From the IMG/VR virus record IMGVR_UViG_3300045950_000158, positions 1-20,966 of that record: 20,966 bases of DNA. One strand, given 5' to 3'. Position 1 is the first letter of the stretch, and each line of letters opens with the position of its first letter. Below the pieces are notes generated by a model, which saw nothing but the letters and a program-made list of their open reading frames with translations, was not told the DNA's origin and ran no database searches. This stretch comes from a virus. Positions 1-20,620 of the stretch are shown one piece after another. A program made the translations under genes and the position numbers.

Positions 1-387
1 AAGGCCGGTTTCACGAACCGTCCGCTCGAAGTCCGGCTCGATCTGCTGATGCAGGATCATCAGGACCATCGCGGAGATGCCCAGCCATTTGTGGACCCGG
101 TACATGCGGTCGAGTCCGCCGAACAATGGCTCCACCAGAGGCGGCCGTGCGGCGAGGATCAGGGTCTGCGCCATTGCGACAACCGCCGCGGCCCCAACTG
201 CAATGCCGAGCGCCGCATCCGCGCCATAGGGCGCATAGGTGTTGAACCCGAGCAGCGCCGCCAGCAGGCATGGCAGCGCTACCAGCAACGGGCCCATCAA
301 GGGCAGAGGCGATATGACGGGAAGCCGGGGCGGTGTCGGAAAGCCGGGCGCCGGGACATCACTGGCGCGATGCACTGCGTCAGTCAT
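1..387 (-). CDS. Ferric-reductase-like transmembrane protein (heme b), 3' end cut by window edge
   Basis: The frame is open from ATG at 387 to the window edge, giving the first 129 residues. Two hydrophobic segments (about 32-50 and 60-80) are followed by RMYRVHKWLG and a third hydrophobic stretch ending ILHQQ. The histidines at residues 99 and 113 are 14 apart, as expected for heme b ligands of the ferric reductase-like transmembrane domain. That family moves electrons across the inner membrane, often to a C-terminal flavin/ferredoxin-reductase module, which would lie outside the window. The start overlaps the PepSY stop by 8 nt and has a strong AAGGAGG ribosome binding site inside the PepSY tail, so the two are co-translated. 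The substrate cannot be told from this fragment. Confidence 0.75.
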   Translation of the reverse strand, partial: MTDAVHRASDVPAPGFPTPPRLPVISPLPLMGPLLVALPCLLAALLGFNTYAPYGADAALGIAVGAAAVVAMAQTLILAARPPLVEPLFGGLDRMYRVHKWLGISAMVLMILHQQIEPDFERTVRETGL

Positions 388-700
388 CGTCGCCTCCTTC
401 GCGATCCCGGCGGGGGCGATCGTCGTCGTCCTCGTCCTCGTATTCGAACTCGATCACCTCGAGCGTCGCCGGATGAACGGTCACCTCGATCCGGCGCCCC
501 TCGGCGTCGCGGCCGTCGATCTCGTAGCAGCCGTCGTCGATCTTGATCCTGCGCACCGTCCAGCCGTTCTCCTCGGCCAACCGGGCGACGGCGTCGCGCG
601 GCTGCCAGTCGGCCATCGGCACGAAGCAGTCGTCGTCCGCCAGCGCGACACCGGCCGGAAAGACGGCGAGAAAGCCGAGAATTGTCAATGTCTTCTTCAT
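380..700 (-). CDS. Secreted PepSY domain protein
   Basis: The protein has 106 residues. It starts with a signal peptide (MKK, hydrophobic core, cleavage likely after ALA at about residue 21). A single PepSY-type repeat follows at about 30-90, with the family pattern of a helix then paired strands (GWTVRRIKIDDGCYEI, then RIEVTVHP...LEVIEFE). The tail is unusually acidic, then Arg/Asp-rich. PepSY proteins are periplasmic and are often encoded beside two-component systems and membrane cytochromes. Their molecular role is poorly defined, with peptidase inhibition or redox/metal sensing proposed. A GAGGAG ribosome site lies just before the ATG. It forms an operon with the downstream ferric-reductase-like gene and is divergent from the response regulator gene, which may control it. 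Confidence 0.82.
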   Translation of the reverse strand: MKKTLTILGFLAVFPAGVALADDDCFVPMADWQPRDAVARLAEENGWTVRRIKIDDGCYEIDGRDAEGRRIEVTVHPATLEVIEFEYEDEDDDDRPRRDREGGDDD

Positions 701-751
701 GGGCCAAACTCCTCGCTGCGGCCATCTTGACGAAATTCATGCGCGGCGAAG

Positions 752-801
752 CTGACGGCAGCCTGAAGGGACGCAGCCCCGCCGCTTCAGCTTCTTGTCA
801 G
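752..801. promoter_or_regulatory. Paired, oppositely oriented response-regulator boxes in a divergent promoter region
   Basis: The gap 701-845 between the PepSY and response regulator genes contains CTGAC-N6-CTGAA on the plus strand (752-767) and the same CTGAC-N6-CTGAA on the minus strand (801-786). The two are symmetric about 776.5. Two 5-bp half-sites with 11-bp spacing match the geometry of OmpR/PhoB-family sites, such as the CTTAA-N6-CTTAA boxes of QseB/PmrA. The inference is that the adjacent regulator binds here and controls both directions. The same dyad could also form a hairpin in a transcript. I could not assign convincing -35/-10 elements. Confidence 0.5.
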
Positions 802-845
802 CCAGACGGATCATGGAGGGTCATCGGAAGAGGACGGGGACGAGG

Positions 846-1505
846 ATGCGAATCCTGCTGATCGAGGACGACACGGTGCTTGGCGCGGCGGTGCGCGACC
901 AGATCGCGGCCGATGGGCAGTCGGCCGATTGGGTGATGCGCCTCGATGCGGCCGGCGACGCGGCGAAATCCGCGTCCTACGATCTGATCCTGCTCGACCT
1001 GATGCTGCCGGACGGTCGCGGGATCGGCTTCCTGAAGAGCCTGCGCGCGCGCGGTGACGTGACCCCGGTCATCATCCTGACCGCGCTCGACCAGGTGTCG
1101 GATCGGATCGAAGGGCTGAACGCGGGCGCCGACGACTATCTCGTGAAGCCCTTCGATCTCGCTGAGTTGTCCGCGCGGATCGGGTCTGTCGCTCGACGCT
1201 ACAGCGGAAACCCTAATCCAATCGTCACCCACGGGCCGCTGGAAATCGACCTCGCCGCCCGCAGCGTTCATCGCGACGGCAAGCTGGTGCAACTGACCGC
1301 AAGGGAATGGGCGCTGTTCGAAGCTTTCCTCGCACGTCCCGGTCAGCTGCTGTCCAAGGCACAGCTGGAGGAGAAGCTCTACGCCTTCGACGCCGAGGTG
1401 GAGAGCAACACCATCGAGGTCCATGTCAGCCGCCTGCGCAAGAAGCTCGGGGCTTCGGTCATCGAGACCGAGCGCGGCATGGGCTACAGGCTGGGCAAAT
1501 CATGA
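846..1505 (+). CDS. OmpR-family two-component response regulator (QseB/PmrA-like)
   Basis: The protein has 219 residues. The start at 846 was chosen because the receiver domain begins there (MRILLIEDD) behind a GAGG ribosome site; an in-frame upstream ATG at 795 would add a non-conserved tail. The receiver domain spans about 1-115, with acidic pocket E7/D8/D9, phospho-acceptor D51 (LLDLMLPD), T79 and K101 (LVKPF). A winged-helix DNA-binding domain spans about 125-219, with the recognition-helix region NTIEVHVSRLRKKL and the C-terminal GMGYRL hairpin. It overlaps the kinase gene by ATGA, so the two form one operon. The likely target is its own divergent promoter region, where paired CTGAC-N6-CTGAA boxes are seen. 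The signal is unknown. Confidence 0.93.
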   Translation: MRILLIEDDTVLGAAVRDQIAADGQSADWVMRLDAAGDAAKSASYDLILLDLMLPDGRGIGFLKSLRARGDVTPVIILTALDQVSDRIEGLNAGADDYLVKPFDLAELSARIGSVARRYSGNPNPIVTHGPLEIDLAARSVHRDGKLVQLTAREWALFEAFLARPGQLLSKAQLEEKLYAFDAEVESNTIEVHVSRLRKKLGASVIETERGMGYRLGKS

Positions 1506-2860
1506 AATGGCCTGCGAGCCTTCAGGGCCGGCTCGGCCTGTCGCTCGGCCTGGCGCTTACGGTGCTGTGGCTGCTCGCGGCGACGGTAACGGCCGTGATC
1601 GTCCGGGGCGAGCTGGACGAGGTCTTCGACAGCGCCCTGCGGGAGACTGCGGAACGGATCCTGCCGCTTGCGGTGACCGATATCGTCGGGCGGGAAGATC
1701 AGGGCGTGACGCAGCGGCTCGCGCCCATCCGGGAGCACGACGAATTCTTCACCTACCTCGTGCGCGATGCCGAGGGGCGCATCCTGCTGCAATCGCACGC
1801 GGCCGACCCTGCCGTGTTCCCACCCTGGGACGGTCAGGGGTTTCGGCAGACCGCAACCCACCGGCTCTACAGCGACGCGGCGCTTCAGGACACGATCCGG
1901 ATCACCGTGGCCGAGCCGCTGGCCCATCGCGCGTCCGTCGCGCGTGAGATCCAGATGGGCCTCGGCCTGCCGCTGCTCATTGTGCTGCCGATCGCGCTGG
2001 CGGCGATCATTCTTGCCGTTCGCTTCAGCCTTGATCCGCTGCGCCGGTTCCGTGCTCGGCTGGATGCGCGCGGCGCCCGCGACCTATCGGAGGTTCCTGC
2101 CAGCGATCTGCCGACGGAGATTAGTCCATTGGCCAAGACGCTCAATGGCCTTCTGGCCCGCTTGCGCGAGGCGTTCGAGGCCGAGCGCAGCTTTGCTGCG
2201 AACGCGGCCCACGAGTTGAGAACGCCTCTGGCCGGCGCAATCGCTCAGGCGCAGCGGCTGAGGGCGGAGACGCAGGAGTCGGCCACCGAAGCTCGTGCCG
2301 CCGAGATCGAGGCGACACTCAAACGTCTGACCCGACTCTCCGAACGCCTCATGCAGCTTGCGCGGGCCGAAGGCGGGCGGCTGCGGATGGACCGGAGCGC
2401 AGATCTCAGGGAGGTTGCACGCGTGATGGTGGACGATCTTGAGCGCGTCAGCACGAAGGGCCGCATCGCGCTGACGCTGCCGAGTACAGCCGTCATGTCC
2501 GACATCGACCCCGACGCCTTCGCCATCCTGTGCCGCAACCTAGTGGAAAACGCGCTCCGGCACGGAGCCGAAAACATGACGGTCGACGTCACGTTGACCG
2601 CGGACGGGCTGCTGTCTGTCGCGAACGACGGCCCGGTCCTGCCACGCGAGATGCTCGACCGCCTCACGGCGCGCTTCGAAAGGGCGAACGCGAATGCCGA
2701 CGGTAGTGGGCTTGGCCTCGCCATCGTCGCCGCCATTGCTGGCCGGATCGGCAGCTCGCTCATCCTGGAGTCGCCACGTCCGGGTGCATCATCCGGTTTC
2801 CAGGCGTCGATCAGGTTGCCAACTGAGGTCTCGGACACCACCGCGAGGCGCGACGCGTAG
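1502..2860 (+). CDS. Two-component sensor histidine kinase (QseC/PmrB-like)
   Basis: The protein has 452 residues. The ATG at 1502 overlaps the regulator stop (ATGA). Transmembrane helix 1 is at about 12-34, a periplasmic sensor region at about 35-152, and transmembrane helix 2 at about 153-174. A HAMP-like linker follows, then the dimerisation/phospho-acceptor helix with AAHELRTPL (H237), the N box NLVENALRH (N346, N350), the G1 motif NDGP (D376) and the G2 motif GSGLGLAI (401-408). This is a complete class I kinase that should phosphorylate the adjacent regulator. The periplasmic part has no motif I can tie to a ligand. The C-terminal dozen residues after RLPTEV are not typical of the core, and the gene ends only 21 bp from the first phage gene. 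Confidence 0.93.
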   Translation: MKWPASLQGRLGLSLGLALTVLWLLAATVTAVIVRGELDEVFDSALRETAERILPLAVTDIVGREDQGVTQRLAPIREHDEFFTYLVRDAEGRILLQSHAADPAVFPPWDGQGFRQTATHRLYSDAALQDTIRITVAEPLAHRASVAREIQMGLGLPLLIVLPIALAAIILAVRFSLDPLRRFRARLDARGARDLSEVPASDLPTEISPLAKTLNGLLARLREAFEAERSFAANAAHELRTPLAGAIAQAQRLRAETQESATEARAAEIEATLKRLTRLSERLMQLARAEGGRLRMDRSADLREVARVMVDDLERVSTKGRIALTLPSTAVMSDIDPDAFAILCRNLVENALRHGAENMTVDVTLTADGLLSVANDGPVLPREMLDRLTARFERANANADGSGLGLAIVAAIAGRIGSSLILESPRPGASSGFQASIRLPTEVSDTTARRDA

Positions 2861-15677: not shown

Positions 15678-15896
15678 ATGACCATGGCCGAGACCGCGAC
15701 CCTGTCCTCGAAGTTCCAGATTTCGATCCCCAAGGCGATCCGCGCGGCGCAGCACTGGGAAGCCGGGCTAACCTTTGCCTTCATCCCGAAAGGCACGGGC
15801 GTCCTGCTTGTGCCGGTGCCCAAGCGGGAGGCGCTGAAGGGGCTCGCGCGCGGCGCGTCCGCCACCGATTATCGCGACCGGACGGACCGGTTCTGA
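15678..15896 (+). CDS. vapB: AbrB/SpoVT-fold antitoxin (VapB-like)
   Basis: The protein has 72 residues. The N-terminal swapped-hairpin motif is clear: ATLSSKFQISIPKAIRAAQH at about 7-26, followed by WEAGLTFAFIPKGTGVLLVPV, the classic AbrB/MazE-type DNA-binding barrel. The C-terminal part (KREALKGLARGASATDYRDR) would wrap the toxin. VapB-type antitoxins neutralise the PIN toxin and repress their own promoter. The ATG at 15678 was chosen for the GTGAGAG site ahead of it; ATG 15684 is an alternative. It overlaps the toxin gene by TGATG. Both genes run against the phage late operon that surrounds them. Confidence 0.88.
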   Translation: MTMAETATLSSKFQISIPKAIRAAQHWEAGLTFAFIPKGTGVLLVPVPKREALKGLARGASATDYRDRTDRF

Positions 15897-16276
15897 TGAT
15901 CCTCGTCGACACGTCGGCGTGGATCGAGTGGCTCATCGGCTCGCCGACCGGCGAGAAGCTGTCTGAACATCTGCCCGAACAGGCCGACTGGCTCGTCCCG
16001 ACCATGGTCCAGCTCGAGCTGGCGAAATGGCTGACCCGCGAGGTCGGCGAGGACAAGGCCGATCAGGTGATCGCCTTCACGCAGGTCTGCCAGGTCGTTC
16101 CGCTCGACACCGAGATCGCGCTGGCGGCGGCGGAAGCGTGCCGGGAGCACAAGCTTGCGACTGCCGACGCGATCATCTTCGCAACCGCCCGCGCACAGGG
16201 CGCGACGCTCCTGACCTGCGACGCACATTTCGAGGGACTGCCCGTCGTCACGCTGATCGAGAAGATCAAGGCCTGA
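15896..16276 (+). CDS. vapC: PIN-domain ribonuclease toxin (VapC-like)
   Basis: The protein has 126 residues, a normal VapC length. The four acidic metal-binding positions of the PIN fold are present: D5 (ILVDTSAWIEW), E41 (VQLELAKW), D91 (ATADAIIFATA) and D109 (LTCDAHF). VapC toxins cut tRNA or rRNA when the antitoxin is lost. The gene overlaps the upstream antitoxin by TGATG. Its 3' end overlaps by 11 bp the end of the frameshift-extended tail chaperone reading frame on the other strand. It probably stabilises the prophage or gives a lysogen-expressed anti-phage effect. Confidence 0.9.
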   Translation: MILVDTSAWIEWLIGSPTGEKLSEHLPEQADWLVPTMVQLELAKWLTREVGEDKADQVIAFTQVCQVVPLDTEIALAAAEACREHKLATADAIIFATARAQGATLLTCDAHFEGLPVVTLIEKIKA

Positions 16277-17913: not shown

Positions 17914-18333
17914 TCAGGCCAGCTGGTCGGCCGTGGAATAGTGCAGCACCACCGGGATCACGGCGGCCTTCAGGCTGGCCGCGCCCTCGACCGGCAGATC
18001 GACCGGGCGCGGGGCTTCGGCCTCGACCCAGTCGCAGAACCCGCCCAGCGTCCGGTCGCCGGCGAGCACCGTGCCGATGCTCGCGGTCAGCGCGTCAAAG
18101 GCGGCGTCACGTGCAGCGCCCTGAACGACGGCCTCGATCTCGGCCCGGTGCTGGTAATGGTAGCGCAGGGGCGACAGCGTGACCTCAGGCTCACCCGGCT
18201 CGCCATCGCGCAAGATCAGCAGGCCGTCAGCCGGCACGCGCTCGGGCAGGACGTCGCCGCGCAGGGCGGTGGCGGGCAGCGCCGACAGGCGCGCGTGCAG
18301 CGCGGCGAGGATGGTTTCGCGCAGGGTTGGCAT
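17914..18333 (-). CDS. Tail terminator (lambda gpU-like minor tail protein)
   Basis: The protein has 139 residues. The opening helix (MPTLRETILAALHARLSALP) is followed by a beta-alpha body with LILRDGEPGEPEVTLSPLRY and a C-terminal strand ...IPVVLHYSTADQLA. This gene position (between head-tail joining genes and the tube gene), its size and its pattern fit tail terminators, which cap the tube at its final length and receive the head. Relatives in databases are sometimes labelled acyl-CoA transferase, which the sequence does not support. Its 5' side now faces a divergent accessory gene pair only 36 bp away, and no strong ribosome site is visible, which suggests that the original upstream sequence was replaced. 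Confidence 0.7.
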   Translation of the reverse strand: MPTLRETILAALHARLSALPATALRGDVLPERVPADGLLILRDGEPGEPEVTLSPLRYHYQHRAEIEAVVQGAARDAAFDALTASIGTVLAGDRTLGGFCDWVEAEAPRPVDLPVEGAASLKAAVIPVVLHYSTADQLA

Positions 18334-18369
18334 GTGGTATTCGAACCCTGTTCCAGAGTAGGTTGAGGC

Positions 18370-19272
18370 TTGAAATATTTGAAGTTTGGCGAACTCCCGA
18401 AGTTTAACCCCACCACGGTGAAGGCCGCCTCAGAAAAGATTTCTGCGGCGATCAAGTTCGCTGAGCCTCATGCCGACCGCGCTCTCGATTGGGGACGAAG
18501 GCAGCAAGAGAGGGCGAGTTCGCAGTTGCCGAACGCCAGCGAGATTGAAGCATGGGCGCGGAAAAATGCAGAGCGCTATGGCTGGCGCCCAAGGCCGTTA
18601 TCGACCTCCTTGGAACATCTCGAGGAAACGCTCACGCAGATCGTCTCGGCAATCCGCCAGACATCCGACCGACGATCGCGGCTTTTCGTCAACGCAGTCA
18701 TAGGAAAGCTGAGTGGGGCGATGGCAATCGGTGGTATCTCGGGACTCGTTGCCACGTTCGGTGCAGCATCTACAGGAACTGCAATTGCATCCCTTTCCGG
18801 CGCAGCCGCGACGACAGCGCAGCTCTACTGGATTGGTTCTATAGTTGGGCTTGGGGTTGCAGGCGGTGGCCTCATGTTGGCAGCCGGCGGTGTGGGTGTC
18901 GGGGTCGCCGCTGGCATCTGGGGGCGAAGAAAGCTCCTTGGCAAACCTCGTTCCGAAGACGAACTTCAGGAGCACGAGAAAGCCGTCCTTGTAGCGTGCA
19001 TAACGCTGATCAACGCGACGAAGCAGCAAAGAGAGCTGAGCGAGACTGCATCATCTGCAGATATGCGGCTTGTCGCCGAACAAGTGCTCATTCCGCTGGC
19101 GAACCAGATCAATCAGCACTGGGATGATGCTTCCCTCAAAGAGAACGGAAAGTCCGAATGCGAACCATTCACGCGAACACTGGCCTACCTGCAACGGCGC
19201 AAGCTCGATCAGTGCAGGGCCGAACTGGGCCGGATCGCGCTGGCAGCGATGGAGAAGGACGCGGCGGCCTGA
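18370..19272 (+). CDS. Unknown glycine-rich membrane protein of an accessory (moron) gene pair
   Basis: The protein has 300 residues. I do not recognise a family. Residues 1-110 are charged and helical (EPHADRALDWGRRQQERASS, LEHLEETLTQIVSAIR). Residues about 117-184 are strongly hydrophobic and Gly/Ala-rich, with two or three membrane segments (AMAIGGISGLVATFG; LYWIGSIVGLGVAGGGLML; GGVGVGVAAGIW). Residues 190-300 are again helical and charged. The start is TTG at 18370; an in-frame TGA lies one codon upstream, and the first ATG is at residue 118, so TTG is the only sensible start. It runs opposite to the surrounding late operon, has lower GC than its neighbours and uses more A/T-ending codons. 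All of this marks it as an acquired accessory gene. A pore-forming or membrane-sensing role is inference. Confidence 0.7.
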   Translation: MKYLKFGELPKFNPTTVKAASEKISAAIKFAEPHADRALDWGRRQQERASSQLPNASEIEAWARKNAERYGWRPRPLSTSLEHLEETLTQIVSAIRQTSDRRSRLFVNAVIGKLSGAMAIGGISGLVATFGAASTGTAIASLSGAAATTAQLYWIGSIVGLGVAGGGLMLAAGGVGVGVAAGIWGRRKLLGKPRSEDELQEHEKAVLVACITLINATKQQRELSETASSADMRLVAEQVLIPLANQINQHWDDASLKENGKSECEPFTRTLAYLQRRKLDQCRAELGRIALAAMEKDAAA

Positions 19273-19343
19273 CCCGAAGCGCTGCGGTCGTCGTTGCTGT
19301 CACCCTGCAGCGCCTGCTCGATGAACCCACTCGCTCCTGGTCG

Positions 19344-19982
19344 ATGGAAGAGGAACTTGTTCTCGATGCCCTCAGGCGGTCGGCGACGAGCCTGAACGGT
19401 GCCACGACAGAGGAACTGGCCGCTTACATCTCTGAGCTCAATCCCGAACAGCTGCGAGGTGTCGTGTCCAACGTGAAGGGCATCTACCACGAGTTGCTTT
19501 TCGTCCATGCTGAAAACATCGACGCAGATGACGTTGCCGCGCGGGTATTCGAGGCGACCAACCATCCCGGCGCAGATGTGGAGTTCATTGTTGACGGTGA
19601 TGTCATCCATGCCGTTCAGCTAAAGGCAGTCGCCTCGCCAGCCGCGATCTTCGAGCATCTTGCCCGCTATCCGGACATCGAAATTGTCGCGACGGAAGAA
19701 GTGGCGGCTGTCGTTTCCGCTGCAAGTGGTTCAGGTTTTTCGAATGCGGCGATATCTGGCGATGTTTCACGCGTGTTCACCGAACTGCCGGGAGACAGTA
19801 TGGCGGTCGAAATCGCAGAAGGTGCTGCAACCTCTGCTCTGTTGGCGGGAGCCATCTCTGCGGCTCAGGTTCTGCGATCCGGCAAGGTTTCCCGGCAGCA
19901 GTTTGCGACGGCGTTTGGCGACGTCTCCGTAGGCGCCATAACGGCGACAGCATTGGACGTTCTCCTCGACGGACTGGCCTGA
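19344..19982 (+). CDS. Unknown protein with PD-(D/E)XK-like signature, partner of the membrane protein
   Basis: From ATG 19344 the protein has 212 residues. A helical N-terminus is followed by a block that reads like a restriction-endonuclease fold: YHELLF with E50, NHPGADVEF with D78, and VQLKA with Q92 and K94, in the E...D...QxK order of PD-(D/E)XK nucleases. Then comes YPDIEIVATEEVA. The C-terminal third is Ala/Gly-rich and hydrophobic (ATSALLAGAISAAQVL; VGAITATALDVLL). The start is uncertain. The frame stays open upstream: a CTG at 19269 would overlap the first gene's stop, GTG 19212 and ATG 19158 lie inside the first gene, and no start has a good ribosome site. It ends 2 bp from the convergent DUF6441 gene. 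I infer that it works with the preceding gene. Confidence 0.65.
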   Translation: MEEELVLDALRRSATSLNGATTEELAAYISELNPEQLRGVVSNVKGIYHELLFVHAENIDADDVAARVFEATNHPGADVEFIVDGDVIHAVQLKAVASPAAIFEHLARYPDIEIVATEEVAAVVSAASGSGFSNAAISGDVSRVFTELPGDSMAVEIAEGAATSALLAGAISAAQVLRSGKVSRQQFATAFGDVSVGAITATALDVLLDGLA

Positions 19983-19984
19983 TT

Positions 19985-20620
19985 TCAACGCCCCTCCACC
20001 CAATTCGCCACGATCAGCCCCGGCACCGCATCGCGTGCCCGTTCGGCATCCCGTGCCAGATTCAGCCGCTTGGGCAGCCTGACCTGCGGCACCAGCAGGA
20101 AGATCGGCACGGTGGTCAGCCCGCGCCCGGTCTTCGAGCGCGACACCACCGCTTGGCCCTTCGTGTTCAACCGGCCCTCCGCCACCAGCAGGCTCGGTCC
20201 GGTGCGACGATAGACGAAGCGCAGGCGCAGGCCGCGTCGCCGCTCCCATTCGCCGGGGGTGATCCTGCCGCCGCGCAGGCCGCGGCCGGCGGCTGGCGTC
20301 GGGATCGCCAGCCAGAAGCCGTCCCTAGAACGGATCAGCGGTCCGGTATCGTGGGCGCCGACAATGACCGGGGCCTTGGACCAGACGAGCGCCGCGGCGT
20401 TCAGGCTTTCGCCGGCCTTCGGGTAGGTCTGGCTCCGGATCGAGTTCGCGAGCCGTCGCCCGAGCCCGGCGCCTGTGATCTGGCCGCGCCAGGCGGTCTT
20501 CAGCCCGGTGCCGGCCTCGCGCATGGCGGCGGTGACCGCCTTCTCGCCGGCCTTCACCTCTGCCGCCATGGCGGCGACGAGATCGGGCGCGATGTCGAGC
20601 TTCAGCTTCATCGCGATCAT
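19985..20620 (-). CDS. DUF6441-like phage structural protein
   Basis: The protein has 211 residues, starting MIAMKLKLDIAPDLVAAMAA. It has an N-terminal helix with EVKAGEKAVTAAMREAGTGL, then RRLANSIRSQTYPKAGESLN, a beta segment with IVGAHDTGPLIRSRDGFWLA, and a basic C-terminal half. It resembles the DUF6441 family, conserved in alphaproteobacterial siphophages between the head-tail joining and tail terminator genes. Position suggests a neck or tail-completion role like gpZ/HK97 gp10; that function is inference. It is coupled to the upstream gene by ATGA. The methionine at residue 4 is an alternative start. Confidence 0.7.
   Translation of the reverse strand: MIAMKLKLDIAPDLVAAMAAEVKAGEKAVTAAMREAGTGLKTAWRGQITGAGLGRRLANSIRSQTYPKAGESLNAAALVWSKAPVIVGAHDTGPLIRSRDGFWLAIPTPAAGRGLRGGRITPGEWERRRGLRLRFVYRRTGPSLLVAEGRLNTKGQAVVSRSKTGRGLTTVPIFLLVPQVRLPKRLNLARDAERARDAVPGLIVANWVEGR

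Follow-up and report, generated by a model that had tools for sequence, protein, structure and literature searches.

A predicted membrane protein paired with a putative PD-(D/E)XK nuclease: candidate defence cargo in the tail operon of a Rhodobacterales phage

Why would two small genes run against the late operon of a phage, between two of its tail genes, and what might they do there? The window analyzed here is an entire virus record of 20,966 bases. Its late genes lie on the minus strand, whereas gene 1 (18370-19272) and gene 2 (19269-19982) lie on the plus strand, inside the tail operon. They fill a slot (18334-19984) that reaches from the start of the tail terminator gene (17914-18333, minus strand; phrog_4204, 1.4e-41) to the stop of a DUF6441 gene for a minor tail or head-tail protein (19985-20620, minus strand; PF20039, 5.7e-50; phrog_6367), whose homologues are the minor tail protein in named Rhodobacter phages. 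The initial annotation, made from the letters of the window, had described this arrangement together with a lower GC content and more A/T-ending codons. Both reading frames and both minus-strand flanks are confirmed, and so is the composition: GC is 58-59% in the pair against 68-73% in the phage genes, with GC3 values of 0.63 and 0.83-0.90, respectively. At the left end of the window (380-2860) are genes for a small acidic protein, a response regulator and a histidine kinase, the latter two (795-2860) named by eye. These genes look host-like, so the window most likely covers the border of an integrated prophage. Between 3293 and 13199 lies a tail module, with an NlpC-type protein, a 1333-aa tail protein and proteins of 209 and 294 aa, which we take to recall the tails of the Rhodobacter gene transfer agent.

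We compared the interval between the DUF6441 and tail terminator genes across 114 distinct related phage contigs (loci L104-L259), and an insert of 268 to 3,237 bases is found at exactly this junction in 111 of them. In the empty allele the DUF6441 and tail terminator genes overlap by 4 bases (three contigs; RcKemmy, RcOceanus). Every one of the 111 inserts is lower in GC than its flanks (mean 55.7% versus 70.5%), so the drop in GC at the pair is a property of the slot. Their 162 open reading frames fall into 136 clusters, almost all with a single member, and no sequence shared among the insert ends was apparent by eye. PADLOC recognized 13 families among 143 cargo proteins, including methyl-directed restriction, a nuclease of the Aga_Nuclease model, PDC-S31, PDC-M19 and PDC-M45, and Pfam found toxins, NYN domains, transporters and enzymes. 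Most cargo proteins have no listed match, and position in the slot alone is therefore no argument for defence. By these comparisons, the slot is a general, hypervariable cargo site. The same pair occupies the same slot in Sagittula salina and in three virus contigs.

The initial annotation had called the pair a moron and had missed the hotspot. The first part is upheld by the slot comparison, as these are extra genes between conserved phage genes, different in composition and absent from relatives. Since the slot is a general cargo site, cargo status is close to certain while a role in defence is only plausible. P2-like phages and P4 satellites are known to carry prophage hotspots of antiviral systems (PMC9122126), and the present slot shares with those the form of a small, high-turnover locus (about 1-5 kb) between two conserved phage genes. 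It differs in lying within a Rhodobacterales siphophage tail operon, at a 4-nt gene overlap, and in holding cargo that is mostly unrecognized. Our literature search found no description of this hotspot. Elsewhere in the window, at 15684-16276 on the plus strand, a VapBC-like pair, with an AbrB-type antitoxin recognized by eye and a PIN toxin found by Pfam (1.4e-21), also runs against the late operon, in the interval between the tape-measure and tail-chaperone genes. That interval exceeds 400 bases in 22 of 102 relatives, and hence may be a second cargo site. A related, partly degraded Paracoccus prophage (L043:7086-8681) carries a fused form of gene 1 and gene 2 at a third position, on the opposite strand and flanked by lysis-type and tail-fibre-like genes.

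A PD-(D/E)XK-like E...D...QxK signature had been read in gene 2 from the window, and an alignment of 55 homologues argues that this signature is not due to chance. E74 (19491-19493), D102 (19575-19577) and K118 (19623-19625) are invariant, as are G63, N67, K69, G70, I71, H73, T96 and E143, and Q116 (19617-19619) is at least 90% conserved. Gene 2 thus has the conserved E, D and (Q/E)xK residues expected of the PD-(D/E)XK group, in a predicted catalytic core at 19491-19625. An AlphaFold model of the protein, of moderate confidence (mean pLDDT 69, with blocks at 70-94 from residue 11 to 160), has a helix at 58-83 that holds E74, strands at 88-92, 103-107 and 110-118, a helix at 124-132 and a strand at 137-140. 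D102 immediately precedes the second strand and the QxK ends the third. This order fits an alpha-beta-beta-beta-alpha-beta core at moderate confidence and with a non-significant fold match, and it recurs in the model of a fused Paracoccus protein (mean pLDDT 64, again moderate). Foldseek returned no significant fold match in the PDB for either model; the PD-(D/E)XK enzymes Ecl18kI, PA endonuclease, DdmDE and FAN1 recur below significance in the match lists. With the residues and the models considered together, gene 2 is very probably a PD-(D/E)XK nuclease.

Gene 1 encodes a helical protein of 300 aa with a TTG start. Its Gly-rich hydrophobic core (18688-18939, residues about 107-190) is recognized by hydropathy and by conserved G/T/A positions, and carries the motif STGTAI..LSGAA....W.G. 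In the window this core has four K/R and no D/E over 84 positions, and in each of the 39 relatives of gene 1, whether split or fused, 19-residue hydropathy exceeds 1.6 in or beside it. The membrane core proposed earlier thus recurs throughout the family, and a simple hydropathy scan predicts that gene 1 is membrane-inserted. It is this part of the protein that varies most among close relatives. Against two related loci, L009 and L011, there are almost no differences at either end of gene 1 or over nearly the whole of gene 2, and codons about 91-220 of gene 1 differ at 17-30 bases per 90. Over the core (18640-19030), up to a third of the bases differ. This pattern marks gene 1 as a mosaic produced by recombination within the membrane part, and suggests that this part is swapped between alleles. 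On a Vibrio parahaemolyticus plasmid (L004:4521-5555), a gene 1 relative stands without gene 2, adjoins a UvrD-type helicase and weakly resembles LeoBC.

The two genes meet in a way that bears on how they are translated. The frame of gene 2 is open already from an ATG at 19158, but conservation of its protein begins only at 19269-19272. We compared the 111 bases before 19269, which lie inside gene 1, with two relatives. Differences from L007 number 8 synonymous and 5 non-synonymous when read in the gene 1 frame, versus 2 and 15 when read in that of gene 2; the corresponding counts against L012 are 10 and 7 versus 3 and 18. As the 37-codon extension (19158-19268) is without coding constraint in the gene 2 frame, we rejected the ATG as a start; the extension is probably not translated as part of gene 2. 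At the homologous junction, several relatives have a start-stop overlap of ATGA or GTGA, and CTGA stands there in the window and its near relatives. Gene 2 likeliest starts at this CTG, overlapping the stop of gene 1, with its translation coupled to that of gene 1. A programmed -1 frameshift fusing the genes was also considered, as gene 2 lies in the -1 frame. We prefer the CTG start, because no slippery heptamer was evident by eye and the frame offsets of relatives differ. A search upstream of the pair for a sigma-70-like promoter found none, with a consensus that covers alphaproteobacterial promoters poorly.

Do gene 1 and gene 2 belong together? The initial annotation had argued so from adjacency and shared composition, and comparison across genomes supports it. 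A scan of bacterial genomes with the gene 2 alignment gave 55 loci, and profile searches found gene 1 with gene 2 in 51 of them, adjacent and directly upstream in 22 and fused in 29. In the split forms the genes overlap or abut, and one of these loci (L028) is broken by frame changes. Among the four remaining loci, one starts at a contig edge and another has a different membrane-like protein upstream. Thirty single-protein forms were seen, including those of Yoonia plasmid pBS5-3-1 and of a Paracoccus prophage, and a split form is borne by the 17-kb conjugative Sulfitobacter plasmid pTHAF37_g. The pair therefore recurs well outside this prophage.

Co-occurrence was also found when the two proteins were sought independently. 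Two PADLOC models were searched over the same 295 Rhodobacterales genomes, in which M72B, the model matched by gene 2, was found at 17 places in 14 genomes and M09A, the model matched by gene 1, at 13 places in 12 genomes. All 13 M09A-like places adjoin an M72B-like place, which would occur by chance with a probability of about 1e-19. By these counts gene 1 and gene 2 are a conserved unit. A tree of the nuclease domain parts fused from split forms by one change with weak support (77/45), and the two forms may thus trace back to one fusion or fission event. Other N-terminal partners are also seen. In Desulfovirgula (L065:410-1882) another protein, membrane-like and of DUF697 type by eye, lies upstream of the nuclease homologue. 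In Mangrovimicrobium (L088:5675-9432) a second M72B-like gene is joined to a different, hydrophobic-looking N-terminus, directly upstream of a PsyrT-type helicase (1.1e-268).

The company that the pair keeps in bacterial genomes points to defence. Taking up to three proteins on each side, we counted PADLOC families at E <1e-10 among 262 neighbours and obtained 484 (178 and 306 in two batches). They include Zorya, Hachiman, Gabija, type I RM, MADS, Tmt, Bov, HEC-05 and several PDC-S. Arbitrary regions of genomes carrying the module served as a control, and their 96 proteins gave 6 families, mostly housekeeping look-alikes. These tallies count matched families rather than proteins, and large known families inflate the ratio, yet the contrast is still large. 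Defence genes are strongly over-represented around the pair in bacterial genomes, which answers the question, raised with the first description, of whether it recurs beside them.

How does the pair relate to systems already catalogued? Pfam and NCBIfam hold no usable family for either gene, and searching the sequences of solved structures with profiles of the two families returned only designed helical proteins and chance matches. PADLOC is more helpful. Gene 1 matches PDC-M09A (PDLC04407, 8.4e-17), mainly over the Gly-rich core, and so do 39 of 39 relatives. Gene 2 matches only PDC-M72B (PDLC04784, 1.1e-31; PDLC04785, 5.2e-25), beyond which it carries an extra helical N-terminus and C-terminus. 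PDC families are candidate defence families, experimentally unvalidated (PMC12988326). Canonical PDC-M72, from two genomes, consists of a 382-aa ankyrin protein followed by a short M72B nuclease; the one such ankyrin protein that was scanned (L085) matches M72A at 5.4e-157. The pair shares the M72B nuclease domain with PDC-M72. Its partner differs, being a predicted membrane protein that is often fused to the nuclease, and by gene content the pair is not a member of PDC-M72, as M72A is not adjacent. With PDC-M09 it shares the M09A component, but the partner here is M72B-like and filed under another candidate. On these matches the pair combines components of two different PADLOC candidates. The earlier statement that no named system has this pair needs qualifying, because both proteins match existing candidate families. 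It holds in that the components are filed under different candidates and that we found no paper naming PDC-M72 or PDC-M09 in the literature searched. As a whole, the initial annotation is partly supported, being right on anatomy and pairing and cautious on function, for which it offered superinfection exclusion or abortive defence.

We propose a model where the pair is one defence machine, carried as interchangeable prophage cargo, in which a membrane-tethered nuclease cuts incoming DNA. The precedent is SNIPE, a membrane-anchored nuclease that cuts phage DNA during injection and is toxic to its host once the anchor is removed (PMC13190303). In the proposed model, the Gly-rich core of gene 1 would insert into the inner membrane, and gene 1 would recruit gene 2, keeping the nuclease on the membrane and clear of the chromosome. 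The tethered nuclease would then cut DNA injected by a competing phage at the point of entry, as SNIPE does with its GIY-YIG nuclease. The model supposes that gene 2 binds gene 1 where the proteins are separate, that DNA is a substrate of the nuclease, that lysogens express the pair, and that incoming DNA is attacked while the cell survives. Reasoning from sequence comparison and from the analogy with SNIPE, we put the probability of this reading at roughly one half.

The analogy is one of design rather than descent. SNIPE is built from a single-pass anchor, DUF4041 and a GIY-YIG nuclease, and the anchor region is its most variable part (PMC13190303). Like SNIPE, the pair joins a membrane anchor, here predicted by hydropathy, to a nuclease; the anchor is variable, and in the fused forms all is housed in one protein. 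The diversified N-terminal region of SNIPE resembles the mosaicism of the membrane core here, set beside a near-identical gene 2. The parts differ, in that no match to the GIY-YIG or DUF4041 Pfam domains is seen in the 39 relatives scanned, of which 18 are fused, and the core here is of PD-(D/E)XK type. Since the parts are unrelated, the pair would be a functional counterpart of SNIPE rather than a version of it. Nor is tethering general for the M72B nuclease, whose canonical partner is an ankyrin protein and not a membrane protein.

A serious rival to the tethered nuclease is abortive infection, which we consider rather unlikely. Gene 2 would then sense phage DNA or its processing, upon which the nuclease would destroy host DNA or gene 1 would open the membrane, and death of the infected cell would protect the rest of the lysogen population. 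Abortive systems often use membrane effectors, and the helical, Gly-rich core might act as a pore. The relative of gene 1 in Vibrio shows a weak resemblance to LeoBC of Eleos (4.5e-6), but that similarity is seen in just one of 39 relatives and the dynamin-like GTPase partner of Eleos is absent here. The catalytic residues are invariant in 55 of 55 homologues, which argues that gene 2 is more than a sensor, and the many lineages with a fused anchor and nuclease are explained by tethering no less well than by a triggered pore. The presence of homologues on the conjugative Sulfitobacter plasmid and on the Yoonia plasmid brings to mind a different target: the pair might act on plasmids or other mobile DNA and not on phages, or serve in competition between plasmid and phage. 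We regard this as improbable, given prophage positions at several sites and the dominance of antiphage systems among the neighbours.

Two further readings would take the pair out of defence. The overlap of the genes, and the toxin-antitoxin-like VapBC pair at a neighbouring cargo site in the window, might suggest an addiction pair in which gene 1 restrains a toxic nuclease. Here the partner is a predicted membrane protein, and parts fused in many lineages are a poor fit to a labile antitoxin, which makes this reading more doubtful still. Location inside a tail operon would be natural for structural or morphogenesis genes. Against this, neither gene has a PHROG match of meaningful score, gene 2 is absent from the 50,697 phage records searched, and the pair lies on the opposite strand at low GC. 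Unrelated genes replace it in 111 related phages, and it occurs on plasmids and chromosomes as well. We therefore reject a role in morphogenesis, whose probability is negligible, and assign neither gene to a known morphogenesis family.

Returning to the tethered nuclease, we expect the slot to be useful whichever reading proves correct. The stop of DUF6441 and the start of the tail terminator are a landmark for collecting and screening well over 100 different small cargo genes, most of which have no known function. The natural fused and split forms, in turn, are ready-made constructs for testing tethering. The finding has solid comparative support, and its mechanism is putative. It is tempting to go further, though at somewhat less than even odds, and to speculate that the pair represents an undescribed class of entry-stage immunity. 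In such a class, a PD-(D/E)XK nuclease with an exchangeable Gly-rich membrane tether would occur in split and fused forms across Pseudomonadota, and would be loaded in Rhodobacterales into a tail-operon slot rich in new genes for phage competition. If so, SNIPE would be no one-off, and nuclease tethering would be a general, repeatedly evolved way to discriminate entering DNA from the chromosome.
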